This document shows, in pieces, positions 1,342-27,982 of a stretch of DNA of 46,889 nt (position 1 is the first letter of the stretch; each line of letters opens with the position of its first letter). The notes beneath the pieces were generated by a model. It was given only the letters and a program-made list of their open reading frames with translations, made no database searches and was not told where the DNA came from. The DNA is from Longimicrobiales bacterium (GTDB lineage: Bacteria > Gemmatimonadota > Gemmatimonadetes > Longimicrobiales > RSA9): positions 1 to 46,889 of the forward strand of contig DASTYK010000187.1 in assembly GCA_035764935.1 (NCBI GenBank), in the 5' to 3' direction. The position numbers and the translations under genes are program-made.

Positions 1342-2652
1342 TCAGCGGGGCTCGTTGGCGATGCGCCGATCGCCGACGCCGGCGATCGGCAGCAGTGACA
1401 TGGAGCGCAGGTTGACGATGTAGCCGTTGAAGCCGCTCAGCACATCGAGTCCGAGCCGGCAGTCGGAGCCGCGCTCGATGAGCGAGTCGACGGCTACGGT
1501 ATAGGCGGGCATGTTGAACAGCCGGGCCGAGGTTTCGCCCAGCGTGAGGGTCACGTTGTCGAGGACCCACGCCGGCACGAGTCGATCGCCTGCGACGCCG
1601 GCGATGCGCACGGTGTCGGGGCGGCCCTCGTCCTGGATCCGGGTCTTCATGCGCTCGTAGAAACGCAGGAAGAGCGCGCTGTGTGTTGCGCCGGTGTCGA
1701 GGTCGCAGACGACCTGCTCGTTCAGCACCTCGAGCTGTACGACGGGCATGAGGAAGCGCAGCGCGAGGTTGTGGACGTCGTAGCTCGGCACCCTGTTCGG
1801 GATGTGCATCACTCCATTGCGGCGGAACTCGACTTCGCCGAGTGCGTCGAGCACGGGGAAGCCGAGGATGCCGGGGATGGAGAACTGCGGATCGCGCCCG
1901 AGCACCTCATCGGGAGCGACGAGGAACGCGACGTTCTCGATCTCGATCCCGCCGAGCCGCAGCCGCGGCGCCACGGTCACATCGGCGACGAACCGTTTTC
2001 CGGTCGACGTGCCGATCTCCACGTCCGCGTGGCGGATCTCGAGGCCCAGCGACTCCGCCTCCGAGCGCCGCATGACGGACAGGTTGGCCCCGGTGTCGAA
2101 CATGTAGGAGCGGAGCGAGTCACCGATCACGACGGGCACGCGCGCGTACCTGCCGCGCGGGATGCTGGTGGAGGTCCGCCGCACGACGCGCTGAGGCGCC
2201 ACGTCCGCGAGGGCGCGTGCGATGCGCAGCTCGTTTTCCGTTTCCGCCCGGAGCAGCGAGTCGAGGTTCTCGAGCGCGAAGAAGTGCTCTGCTGCGGCGG
2301 CCGCAGCGGCGTACTCGTGGAGTCGGAAGTGGTTGCGGTAGCGTAGCCGGTGGGCGACCGCGCGCATGCTGCCGTTGATTCCGTCGAGACCCGGGCCGAG
2401 CAGGTCCAGCTGCCGGTTGGACTCGATGGGGTCGTTGAATGCGTGAGCGACGATAGCGCGGAGCAGCGTGACGCGCGCGTCGTCCAGCGTCGGCTGCTGC
2501 TCGAGTGCGGTGCGCAGGCCGAAATAATCCCGGCGCTCGTACATCTCGACCAGCTGCCTGACTTCGTCATGCGACGACCACACGCGGATGGATGCGCATC
2601 CGGCGGGAAGCAGCAGCAGCGCGAGCCAGGAGAAACGGTGCAGCCGGTGCAT
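1342..2652 (-). CDS. Lipoprotein with two retropepsin-like aspartyl protease domains
   Basis: The product is 436 residues. ATG 2652 is preceded by AGGAG with seven bases spacing and opens a hydrophobic signal ending LLPAGC, so Cys19 is a probable lipidation site, although Pro at -3 is not typical. Residues 25-150 are helical and repeat-like. Two clan-AA aspartyl protease modules follow, each with the catalytic DTGA motif: Asp186 in YMFDTGANLSVM and Asp319 in CDLDTGATHSALF. A tandem pair could form one intramolecular active site, unlike viral retropepsins, which dimerise. A role in envelope proteolysis is inferred. A related protein is encoded at 33190-34266. It is divergent from ada. Confidence 0.8.
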   Translation of the reverse strand: MHRLHRFSWLALLLLPAGCASIRVWSSHDEVRQLVEMYERRDYFGLRTALEQQPTLDDARVTLLRAIVAHAFNDPIESNRQLDLLGPGLDGINGSMRAVAHRLRYRNHFRLHEYAAAAAAAEHFFALENLDSLLRAETENELRIARALADVAPQRVVRRTSTSIPRGRYARVPVVIGDSLRSYMFDTGANLSVMRRSEAESLGLEIRHADVEIGTSTGKRFVADVTVAPRLRLGGIEIENVAFLVAPDEVLGRDPQFSIPGILGFPVLDALGEVEFRRNGVMHIPNRVPSYDVHNLALRFLMPVVQLEVLNEQVVCDLDTGATHSALFLRFYERMKTRIQDEGRPDTVRIAGVAGDRLVPAWVLDNVTLTLGETSARLFNMPAYTVAVDSLIERGSDCRLGLDVLSGFNGYIVNLRSMSLLPIAGVGDRRIANEPR

Positions 2653-25459: not shown

Positions 25460-25508
25460 CGGGTGCGATCCCCCAAATCCTGTAGGGAGAATCCTGACAT
25501 CGCACCCG
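25460..25508. repeat. 10-bp inverted repeat upstream of the asnB leader
   Basis: CGGGTGCGAT (25460-25469) and ATCGCACCCG (25499-25508) are exact inverted repeats, 29 bases apart. The interval contains CCC/GGG that could extend the stem and two copies of AATCCTG 14 bases apart. It lies between the divergent pseudokinase gene and the asnB promoter; it could be a regulator site or an RNA structure if transcription starts further upstream. Confidence 0.5.
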
Positions 25509-25523
25509 CTTTCCGTACCCGCC

Positions 25524-25552
25524 TTGTCCGCCGCCAGCGCTGCCGCTAGTGT
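25524..25552 (+). promoter_or_regulatory. Candidate promoter of the asnB leader
   Basis: TTGTCC (25524-25529), a 17-base spacer and TAGTGT (25547-25552) match sigma70 at 4 and 3 of 6 positions. Six bases separate the -10 from ATG 25559, so the leader ORF would begin at the first base of the RNA. The match is weak alone; its support comes from the same geometry at other genes here. Confidence 0.4.
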
Positions 25553-25558
25553 GCAGAC

Positions 25559-25642
25559 ATGAGCAAGCGCCTGAATCGCAACGGCAATTTCCTCAATTCG
25601 CGTCCCTCGTGGAGCCGCGAACCGGGAGCGTCGTTGCGTTAG
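25559..25642 (+). CDS. Asparagine-rich leader peptide of asnB
   Basis: The ORF encodes 27 residues beginning MSKRLNRNGNFLN. Asparagine occupies positions 6, 8, 10 and 13, four of the first 13 codons (AAT, AAC, AAT, AAT), far above normal use. No Shine-Dalgarno precedes it, consistent with a leaderless start. It lies upstream of an intrinsic terminator and asparagine synthetase, so it most likely works by ribosome stalling when charged tRNA-Asn is scarce, like the trp and his leader peptides. The peptide itself probably has no function. Too short for standard gene callers. Confidence 0.75.
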   Translation: MSKRLNRNGNFLNSRPSWSREPGASLR

Positions 25643-25676
25643 GTCAGCGTGCGCTTGCGATCCAGGGCTCCACGGT
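25597..25676 (+). promoter_or_regulatory. Antiterminator elements of the asnB attenuator
   Basis: CGTGGAGCC (25608-25616), inside the leader ORF, is identical to part of the terminator 3' arm and therefore complementary over nine bases to its 5' arm (25666-25674). Pairing of these two forms an antiterminator. A competing protector hairpin, TTCGCG (25597-25602) with CGCGAA (25616-25621), holds the same segment in its loop and stem. A ribosome stalled at Asn13 (25595-25597) would cover the protector arm and free the antiterminator; a ribosome that finishes the ORF lets the protector and terminator form. Confidence 0.65.
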
Positions 25677-25696
25677 CACCGTGGAGCCCTTTTTTT
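25665..25696 (+). terminator. Intrinsic terminator of the asnB attenuator
   Basis: GGGCTCCACGG (25665-25675), loop TCA, and the exact complement (25679-25689) make an 11-base-pair stem followed directly by seven Ts (25690-25696). It is the only T-tailed hairpin I found in the window. No plus-strand gene other than the leader ORF lies upstream, so its position 23 bases after that ORF and 25 bases before asnB points to regulation, not gene ending. Confidence 0.9.
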
Positions 25697-25721
25697 GTGC
25701 CCATGCGCGGGAGCACCATCG

Positions 25722-27551
25722 ATGTGTTCGATCCTCGCCGTACTCAACCTGGAAAGCGACGTCTCGCCCCGACGTCGCGAGGTGGTCCGCCTGTCGCGGC
25801 TGCAGCAGCACAGGGGCCCCGACTGGTCGGGCGTGTACACCGGCACGCACGCGGTGCTCGCTCACGAGCGCCTCGCAATCGTGGACGTGCTGCACGGCGC
25901 GCAGCCGCTGCGCAACGCGGAAGGCACGCAGGCACTGGCGGTGAACGGCGAGATCTACAACCACCGTGCGCTGCGCCACGGCCTGCGTGCGCCGTACGCC
26001 TTCCAGACCGACTCCGACTGCGAGATCATTCTGGCGCTGTACCGGGAGCAGGGCTCCGATTTCATCGGGATGCTGAACGGCATCTTTGCGTTCGTGCTCT
26101 TCGACGAGGCGCGCGGGCGCTACGTCATCGCGCGCGACCCGATCGGTGTGATGCCGCTCTACATGGGCAGCGACGATGCGGGCAACACCTGGGTCGCATC
26201 GGAGATGAAGGCGCTCGTGCCCGTGTGCACGTCCATCCACGAGTTTCCGCCGGGACATGTCCTCGACAGCGGGAGCGGTGCGCTGCGGCGGTATTACGAG
26301 CCTGCGTGGCGGGAGTTTGGGGCTGTGGCGGGCGGCGCCGCGTCGCATCCGGCCCGGATCGAAGCGGTGATGGTGACGCCGGAGTCGGCGCATCGGGCAC
26401 CGGGCGCTACCGGGGCGGACGCAGAGCACCCGGCACCGGCCGCTGCCGATGCGGCACCGGCGCCCGGCCGCATCCGCACTGCACTGCGTGCCGCCGTCGA
26501 GCGCCAGCTCATGTGCGACGTGCCCTACGGCGTGCTGCTCTCCGGCGGGCTCGACTCCTCCATCATCGCAGCCACCGCCCGTACGTTCGCCGACCGCCGC
26601 ATCGAGGAGGACGGTCGCGCGGCCGCGTGGTGGCCGCGCCTGCACACGTTCTCCATCGGCCTGGACGGTGCACCCGACCTCGCGGCCGCGCGCGACGTCG
26701 CGCGCCACATCGACTCGGCGCACCACGAGTTCCACTTCACCGTGGAAGAAGGCCTCGACGCACTCGCGGACGTCGTCTACCACCTCGAGACGTACGACGT
26801 CACGACCATCCGCGCGGCGACGCCGATGTACCTGATGGCGCGTCGCATTCGTGCGATGGGCGTGAAGATGGTGCTCTCGGGAGAGGGTGCGGACGAGATC
26901 TTCGGCGGCTACCTGTACTTCCACCGCGCGCCGGACGCGCGTGCGCTGCACGAGGAGACCGTGCGCAAGCTCGACCGGCTGCACATGTACGACTGTCTGC
27001 GGGCGAACAAGGCCATGGCGGCGTGGGGCGTGGAAGCGCGCGTGCCGTTCCTGGACCGCGAGTTCCTCGACGTCGCGATGCAGATACCACCGGAACTCAA
27101 GATGGCCGGCGGCGACCGCATGGAGAAGCACGTGCTGCGCGAGGCGTTCGCGACCGACCTTCCGCAAGCAGTCGCGTGGCGGCAGAAGGAGCAGTTCTCC
27201 GACGGCGTCGGTTACGAGTGGATCGACAGCGTGCGCGCGTTCGCGGCGCGCGAGATCAGTCCGCGCGTGCTCGAGCATGCGAACGTCCGCTTCCCGTACA
27301 ACACGCCGACCACGCCGGAGGCGTACCTGTACCGGGCGCTGTTTGCCGAACGGTTCCCGCATGACGCATGTGCGCGCTGCGTCCCGGGCGGCGCTTCCGT
27401 CGCGTGCAGCACGCCGGAAGCGCTGGCCTGGGACGCGTCGCTCGGTGACGTGATCGATCCGTCCGGCCGGGCCGTACGCGGCGTGCATGCAGCCGCGTAT
27501 GCCGCTACCGGCACGACGGAGCGGCCGGCTGAGGCCGGCCCGCTGTGCTAG
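25722..27551 (+). CDS. asnB: Asparagine synthetase, glutamine-hydrolysing
   Basis: The product is 609 residues. It makes asparagine from aspartate, ATP and glutamine. The start is ATG 25722, since Cys2 must become the N-terminal nucleophile (MCSILAVLNL); GGGAG lies eight bases upstream. The class II glutaminase domain covers about 2-195 (QQHRGPDW, HERLAIVD, NGEIYNH, DSDCE). The ATP-dependent synthetase domain starts near 250, with the PP-loop LLSGGLDSS (274-280) and LSGEGADEIFGGY. E. coli AsnB has 554 residues; the excess is mainly an Ala/Pro-rich linker at about 200-250. The gene sits behind the attenuator. Its TAG shares CTAG with the stop of the opposing VOC gene. Confidence 0.96.
   Translation: MCSILAVLNLESDVSPRRREVVRLSRLQQHRGPDWSGVYTGTHAVLAHERLAIVDVLHGAQPLRNAEGTQALAVNGEIYNHRALRHGLRAPYAFQTDSDCEIILALYREQGSDFIGMLNGIFAFVLFDEARGRYVIARDPIGVMPLYMGSDDAGNTWVASEMKALVPVCTSIHEFPPGHVLDSGSGALRRYYEPAWREFGAVAGGAASHPARIEAVMVTPESAHRAPGATGADAEHPAPAAADAAPAPGRIRTALRAAVERQLMCDVPYGVLLSGGLDSSIIAATARTFADRRIEEDGRAAAWWPRLHTFSIGLDGAPDLAAARDVARHIDSAHHEFHFTVEEGLDALADVVYHLETYDVTTIRAATPMYLMARRIRAMGVKMVLSGEGADEIFGGYLYFHRAPDARALHEETVRKLDRLHMYDCLRANKAMAAWGVEARVPFLDREFLDVAMQIPPELKMAGGDRMEKHVLREAFATDLPQAVAWRQKEQFSDGVGYEWIDSVRAFAAREISPRVLEHANVRFPYNTPTTPEAYLYRALFAERFPHDACARCVPGGASVACSTPEALAWDASLGDVIDPSGRAVRGVHAAAYAATGTTERPAEAGPLC
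27523..27540. terminator. GC hairpin at the end of asnB
   Basis: GGCCGGC (27523-27529), loop TGAG, GCCGGCC (27534-27540) lies within the last codons of asnB and just downstream of the converging VOC gene, which leaves no intergenic space. It may help end both transcripts. Confidence 0.35.
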
Positions 27552-27982
27552 CCGAACTGCACGTCGCCCGTGTACATCACCATCCAGCGGATGCCGTAAC
27601 GGTCCGTCAGGTCGCCGTAGGTTTCCGCCCACGCGGTGCGCTGCATCGGCATGCCCTCCTTGCCGCCTTCGCCGAGCGCCTCGAAGATGCGGTGGGCCTC
27701 GTCCGCGGAGTCCGTCTCGAGAGCGATGTAGAAGTTGTTCCCGACGTTGACCTTTTCCATGCTGGCGGGCACGTCCGACGCCATGAGCACGGTATTCGGT
27801 GCGATCGGCAACCCGATGTTGGCGATCAGGTCGAGGTCCTTGCCCTTGAAGCCCATCTGCTCGCCACCCATGTCACGGAACCGCGTCACGTTCGTGAACT
27901 CGCCGCCCAGGACCGAGCGGTAGAACTCGAAGGCCTCTTCGGCATTGCCGGGGAAGTTCAGATAGGGGCTGACGGATTTCAT
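27548..27982 (-). CDS. VOC-family (PhnB/glyoxalase-like) protein
   Basis: The product is 144 residues, with GGAGG five bases before ATG 27982. It opens MKSVSPYLNFPGNAEEAFEFY, the usual start of PhnB-like vicinal-oxygen-chelate proteins, contains VLGGEFTNVTRFRDMGG and ends DRYGIRWMVMYTGD. The family includes glyoxalases, dioxygenases and resistance proteins; the canonical metal ligands are not complete, as in most PhnB-like members, so no reaction is assigned. It overlaps asnB by four bases at the stop codons. Bases 27983-28173 upstream hold no supported gene. Confidence 0.88.
   Translation of the reverse strand: MKSVSPYLNFPGNAEEAFEFYRSVLGGEFTNVTRFRDMGGEQMGFKGKDLDLIANIGLPIAPNTVLMASDVPASMEKVNVGNNFYIALETDSADEAHRIFEALGEGGKEGMPMQRTAWAETYGDLTDRYGIRWMVMYTGDVQFG

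Follow-up and report, generated by a model that had tools for sequence, protein, structure and literature searches.

How is transcription of asnB, the gene for asparagine synthetase B, controlled in a bacterium of the order Longimicrobiales? In the stretch of 46,889 nucleotides analyzed here (hereafter, the window), a short open reading frame (ORF) with several asparagine codons and a hairpin followed by a run of T are located just upstream of asnB. The initial annotation of this DNA proposed that they form an attenuator, in which a ribosome stalled at Asn codons allows transcription to continue into the gene. We compared the locus with those of related genomes. On the basis of the comparative evidence described below, we are strongly confident that the region encodes a ribosome-mediated transcription attenuator, which is predicted to sense asparaginyl-tRNA and to control asnB.

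Leader ORF and hairpins upstream of asnB in the window

The features of the locus are summarized in Table 1. The position and length of the leader ORF, its Asn residues at codons 6, 8, 10 and 13, and the 6-bp protector had been placed correctly in the initial annotation. The complementarity of a nine-base segment of the ORF (25608-25616) to the terminator 5' arm was also as described. This segment, CGTGGAGCC, lies inside strand 2 and repeats the sequence of the terminator 3' arm; when position 25607 is added, the antiterminator in the window comprises 10 bp (25607-25616 with 25666-25675). The terminator hairpin and its seven Ts were present, but the stem is 12 bp long and not 11 bp.

Table 1. 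Features of the asnB leader locus in the window and loci of the tRNA-Asn leaders
Feature	Position	Strand	Evidence
Candidate promoter, TTGTCC (25524-25529), 17-nt spacer, TAGTGT (25547-25552)	25524..25552	+	promoter scoring
Leader peptide ORF, 27 codons, MSKRLNRNGNFLNSRPSWSREPGASLR	25559..25642	+	equivalent ORF in 28 analyzed leaders
Control region, Asn codons AAT (25574-25576), AAC (25580-25582), AAT (25586-25588), AAT (25595-25597)	25574..25597	+	
Strand 1, protector 5' arm TTCGCG, partner CGCGAA (25616-25621)	25597..25602	+	1:2 covariation
Strand 2, antiterminator 5' strand TCGTGGAGCC	25607..25616	+	2:3 pairing tests
Strand 3, terminator 5' arm GGCTCCACGG, alternative partners strand 2 or strand 4	25666..25675	+	
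Intrinsic terminator (3:4), 12-bp hairpin (25664-25675/25679-25690), loop TCA, T7 (25690-25696)	25664..25696	+	covariation
asnB, glutamine-hydrolysing asparagine synthetase B, regulated gene	25722..27551	+	equivalog model
tRNA-Asn leader loci: L236, L244, L245, L249, L256, L257, L260, L261, L276, L282, L286, L287, L288			

The asnB gene begins with an ATG codon, and its product matches the asparagine synthase B equivalog NF006949 with 835 bits (cut-off, 499). The following gene (27548-27982) is encoded on the opposite strand, and asnB is apparently a single-gene unit. The gene for asparaginyl-tRNA synthetase (AsnRS), asnS, was found in the same genome (G000 C173; 495 bits, cut-off 342.6), and it scored above the cut-off in 36 of the 40 genomes tested. 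Because AsnRS is present, the charging of tRNA-Asn can depend on free asparagine.

Of the 379 ORFs of 20-40 codons on both strands of the window, only the asnB leader has at least four Asn codons. Likewise, the scan of the 47-kb window found a single strong terminator-like hairpin, that of asnB, and it lies 22 nt from the leader ORF. In frames sampled from neighboring genes, Asn accounts for about 1.7% of residues, which gives a rough probability of about 0.001 for four Asn in 26 residues. For the 198-nt region, folding was 4.5 s.d. better than for shuffled sequences. Chance is out of the question for the combination of leader and terminator because this combination is conserved in relatives, as described in the next section.

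Leaders before asnB in related genomes and their alternative pairings

We took asnB from related genomes and read the upstream regions. The same architecture was found in 35 genomes, namely 29 from Gemmatimonadota (13 genera) and six from the Rubrivirga class of Rhodothermota. We analyzed 28 leaders in detail, and one of these (L009) belongs to the six from the Rubrivirga class. Examples of the leader peptides are MTALFRNRNRNRNPLSPGSRGWGCPSP, MRATGCTLNNNNNRNPRTLCARAGCDV, MIRHTLNVNNSNHRLTRGRRPGIVP and MTATALRTNRNNNGNPRANRAWAGQGA. In the 28 leaders, Asn codons account for 129 of 741 codons in frame (17.4%), as compared with 2/741 (0.3%) and 1/741 (0.1%) in the other two frames. In all 28, the terminator is located 19-41 nt past the leader stop codon. 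The leaders were chosen partly for their Asn content; this selection does not account for the contrast between frames or for the adjacency of the terminator. As exceptions, the hairpins are kept with only one Asn codon in L104 and with two in L095 and L108. Furthermore, a leader is absent upstream of many asnB genes in the phylum, as judged from the upstream regions read in genera g12 and g31 and family f7. Asn-rich ORFs before gammaproteobacterial asnB genes were rejected as chance occurrences; these genomes are AT-rich, and an adjacent terminator is mostly absent.

The attenuator proposed in the initial annotation would have been refuted if relatives retained the hairpin without the Asn codons or the antiterminator pairing. 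In fact, Asn codons, hairpin and antiterminator pairing are all kept, while the surrounding amino-acid and nucleotide sequences vary. Apart from Asn and the residues that strand 2 imposes, the leader peptide differs almost everywhere, and the nucleotides outside the paired parts are poorly conserved.

These observations bear on two other explanations. One is that the ORF is incidental and that a T-box or another riboswitch responds to a metabolite or to uncharged tRNA-Asn. T-box control is common for asparagine genes in Firmicutes, and the region upstream of asnB is highly structured. However, no Rfam family reached its gathering score in the window, and the leader gave only sub-threshold, unrelated matches, with no T-box at E-values up to 1. 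Moreover, a riboswitch does not account for Asn codons conserved in a single frame or for the poor conservation of unpaired nucleotides. We consider this explanation very unlikely. The other is that the hairpin merely serves as the constitutive terminator for a small gene upstream, which encodes a functional Asn-rich protein. An ORF and a terminator would also be expected in this case, but hardly any part of the peptide is constant apart from Asn and the strand 2 portion, and a strand inside the ORF, family-specific in its sequence, is complementary to the 5' arm of the terminator. Because the window terminator ends 31 nt from asnB, there is also hardly any room for a second promoter. A constitutive terminator is, in our judgment, extremely improbable.

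Strand 2 lies inside the ORF, and its sequence is CGTGGAGCC in the window, GCGAATCG in family f5 and GGCAGGGTG in L092. The terminator sequence differs between families together with strand 2. The 2:3 pairing between leaders and their own terminators was stronger than in codon shuffles (p = 3e-6, Fisher over 13 genera). It was also stronger than the pairing with swapped terminators of other genera (182 of 100,000 permutations, p = 0.0018); this test used the terminator arm including the loop, into which some 2:3 pairings reach. As a separate observation within family f5, an A-to-G change distinguishes strand 2 of L155 (G112) from that of L148 and L151-L154, and the terminator 3' arm of L155 carries the identical change (at both sites, GCGAATCG to GCGAGTCG), as if the two copies were maintained at the same strength with respect to strand 3.

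In the aligned leaders, the 1:2 hairpin directly follows the last Asn codons in 11 of 11. Compensatory changes were found in 11 cells of the 1:2 stem, and none of 500 shuffles reached its covariation score. Covarying 2:3 and 3:4 stems had been anticipated. For 3:4 this held, with no shuffle of 500 as good. In contrast, the 2:3 columns of alignment A1 are conserved rather than covarying, and 88 of 500 column shuffles were as good. Since this test was not significant, the point for 2:3 is carried by the cross-genus swap test.

We also folded the RNAs with a ribosome footprint placed on an Asn codon and with strand 4 not yet made. Under these conditions 2:3 was obtained in 27 of the 28 leaders, with no clear 2:3 in L161. 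For the window RNA, the predicted number of 2:3 pairs was 0 in the free RNA and 9-10 with the stalled ribosome. In about half of the members, 2:3 also appears in the minimum-energy fold without a ribosome, and therefore the switch in those members would need the order of folding. Either equilibrium folding falls short in this respect, or the switch itself is weak in those members.

A covariance model was built from 11 Gemmatimonadota leaders, with no Rhodothermota in the training set. It recovered two unseen asnB leaders (L217, 82 bits; L218, 75 bits) and, with 44-72 bits, each of the six Rhodothermota leaders, whereas it gave no match in five asnB loci without a leader. Thus, the leader ORF, the enrichment of Asn codons in its frame only and the three alternative pairings are conserved in two phyla.

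Weak matches of the model before a MATE-like exporter gene (L232 and L235), at a tRNA-Lys gene (L228) and in L229 were set aside, as they probably reflect the terminator only. The model also led to leaders for other amino acids in the same bacteria. Tyr-rich leaders with terminators precede DAHP synthase genes in L219, L220, L222, L223, L226 and L231 (for example, MSIHTRTSYRGYRYYGFPNGTPGLAARV and MIECRRSSSVYAYYYATHTVGRYRRRMR). In L224 (match 1501-1641, minus strand), a His leader, MDTYTTHRHHHHHHAAPTGGATEVCA, and a terminator are followed by a gene with a HisG-like product (hisG). In L221 (match 1501-1636, minus strand), a Thr/Lys-rich leader, MTLVTKKFTKTKGLPGGAARSRL, and a terminator precede the gene for aspartate-semialdehyde dehydrogenase (asd). 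Apart from these leaders, the window genome, which is 96% complete, gave no match for the acetolactate synthase large subunit (ilvB, TIGR00118), a gene considered as another candidate for attenuation; this absence suggests branched-chain amino acid auxotrophy or loss from the assembly.

The mechanism with a stalled ribosome put forward in the initial annotation is well supported by these comparisons of sequences. Translation of the ORF, ribosome stalling on the control codons, and termination and read-through in the cell are all inferred. When Asn-tRNA is plentiful, the ribosome would pass the Asn codons and reach the stop codon. The protector 1:2 would then form behind it and hide strand 2, so that the 3:4 terminator may form and transcription would end upstream of asnB. 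If Asn-tRNA runs short, the ribosome would stall at Asn codons 6-13, and strand 1 would be covered or kept unpaired. Strand 2 could then pair with strand 3, the terminator would not form, and asnB would be transcribed.

Leaders before tRNA-Asn genes

The covariance model also matched upstream of tRNA-Asn(GUU) genes. We therefore searched with this tRNA as the query and read 53 upstream regions. An Asn-rich leader and a terminator were found upstream of tRNA-Asn(GUU) in 13 genomes from six genera of the same order (Table 1); an example of the peptide is MNMLSNPNSNPNRNLQGGGADFA. These leaders resemble the asnB leader in the type of peptide, in the alternative pairings and in being matched by the same covariance model. 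They differ in that a tRNA gene lies downstream and in that their genomes have no close asnB (0 of 13 in the asnB search). Asn codons account for 59 of 294 codons in frame, as compared with 2 and 0 in the other frames. When tested across genera, 2:3 pairing was significant (p = 1.3e-6). The distance from terminator to tRNA gene is 6-72 nt. In L236, L249, L287 and L288 it is 6-10 nt, too short to accommodate a further promoter. Several others have a gap of 32-72 nt, in which a separate tRNA promoter is possible. In these 13 genomes without asnB, the tRNA-Asn gene is apparently subject to attenuation by a leader peptide.

The tRNA-Asn genes that follow these leaders encode U1-A72. In the order, tRNA-Asn with U1-A72 (53) and asnB (46) almost exclude each other, with one shared case (hypergeometric, 5e-10, not corrected for phylogeny). 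The U1-A72 pair is recognized by GatCAB, and bacteria without AsnA and AsnB can make asparagine on the tRNA even when they have AsnRS (PMC4206432). AsnRS was above the cut-off in 12 of the 13 genomes with tRNA leaders. We infer that tRNA-Asn in asnB-less genomes is in effect a component of asparagine biosynthesis; the specificity of AspRS and the presence of GatCAB are themselves inferred. If so, a regulator shared with asnB is sensible.

The tRNA leaders also bear on a further explanation, namely that the ORF acts on asnB through translational coupling or general upstream-ORF repression and not through transcription termination. Such action has been proposed for leader ORFs elsewhere (PMC4833913). 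However, 79 nt with a strong terminator separate the leader stop codon from the asnB start codon in the window, and the same device stands before tRNA-Asn genes, which are untranslated. Control at the level of translation is therefore scarcely credible. We return to transcription attenuation: because at least 34 related genomes share the device and it also occurs before tRNA-Asn, asparagine is probably sensed via the ease of reading Asn codons. We further regard it as likely, with less certainty than attenuation of asnB itself, that Asn leader attenuation switches its regulon. It would act on asnB where this gene is present and otherwise on tRNA-Asn of the AspRS/GatCAB route, whose pool would be set by stalling on its own codons in a leaderless mRNA.

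Start of the leader and relation to known systems

The initial annotation had raised the possibility of a leaderless ORF. No Shine-Dalgarno-like motif was noticed by eye before the leader ATG in the window. The candidate promoter in Table 1 ends 6 nt before the ATG, scores 11.7 and would begin the transcript at or beside the A of the ATG. A rival promoter (CTGACA, 16 nt, TACCCG; 25494-25521), 37 nt upstream, scores 12.1. Since the two promoters score alike and 5'-end data are lacking, leaderless translation remains a plausible but unproven possibility for the window copy. In 11 of 28 asnB leaders and in 13 of 13 tRNA-Asn leaders, the end of the best promoter lies 6-9 nt upstream of the ATG, where shuffling predicts 1.3 and 0.6, respectively. 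A leaderless mRNA has such a layout, and judged from promoter geometry alone, many members are probably leaderless. As a precedent, the trpL leader ORF of Sinorhizobium (S. meliloti) is reportedly leaderless.

The asnB device meets the sequence-testable features of classical leader-peptide attenuators. Like the trp, his, leu, thr, ilv and phe attenuators of Proteobacteria, it combines a short ORF, enriched in codons for the amino acid under control, with hairpins 1:2, 2:3 and 3:4 that overlap one another and with an intrinsic terminator before a biosynthetic gene. It differs from them in sensing, as predicted, asparagine, in its occurrence in Gemmatimonadota and Rhodothermota, in the position of strand 2 inside the ORF and, probably, in the leaderless state of many members. 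With asparagine T-boxes of Firmicutes it shares the charging of tRNA-Asn as input and the same kind of target gene, but a T-box reads the tRNA directly without translation, and the asnB leader has no T-box signature. Leader-peptide attenuation is likewise described in high-GC bacteria, namely in Actinobacteria (PMC1262725) and for Sinorhizobium trpL (PMC7298713). The actinobacterial report does not mention asparagine and includes no Asn member.

The initial annotation knew of no described Asn leader peptide, and we also found none in the open-access literature searched; closed papers were outside the scope. With the same limits, our search found no leader-peptide-attenuated tRNA gene, and we know of no described case. 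The principle is thus a known one; within the open-access literature, what is new is the amino acid, the phyla and, in the sister elements, the tRNA target.

Asparagine would thereby join the amino acids sensed by leader-peptide attenuation, and this regulation, as inferred from sequence, is established in two little-studied phyla. If the Asn device indeed acts before tRNA-Asn, it would provide direct feedback on the synthesis of a tRNA via the decoding of its own codons. Attenuation of tRNA-Asn is relevant to the unsettled issue of how the supply of tRNA is adjusted to demand in bacteria.
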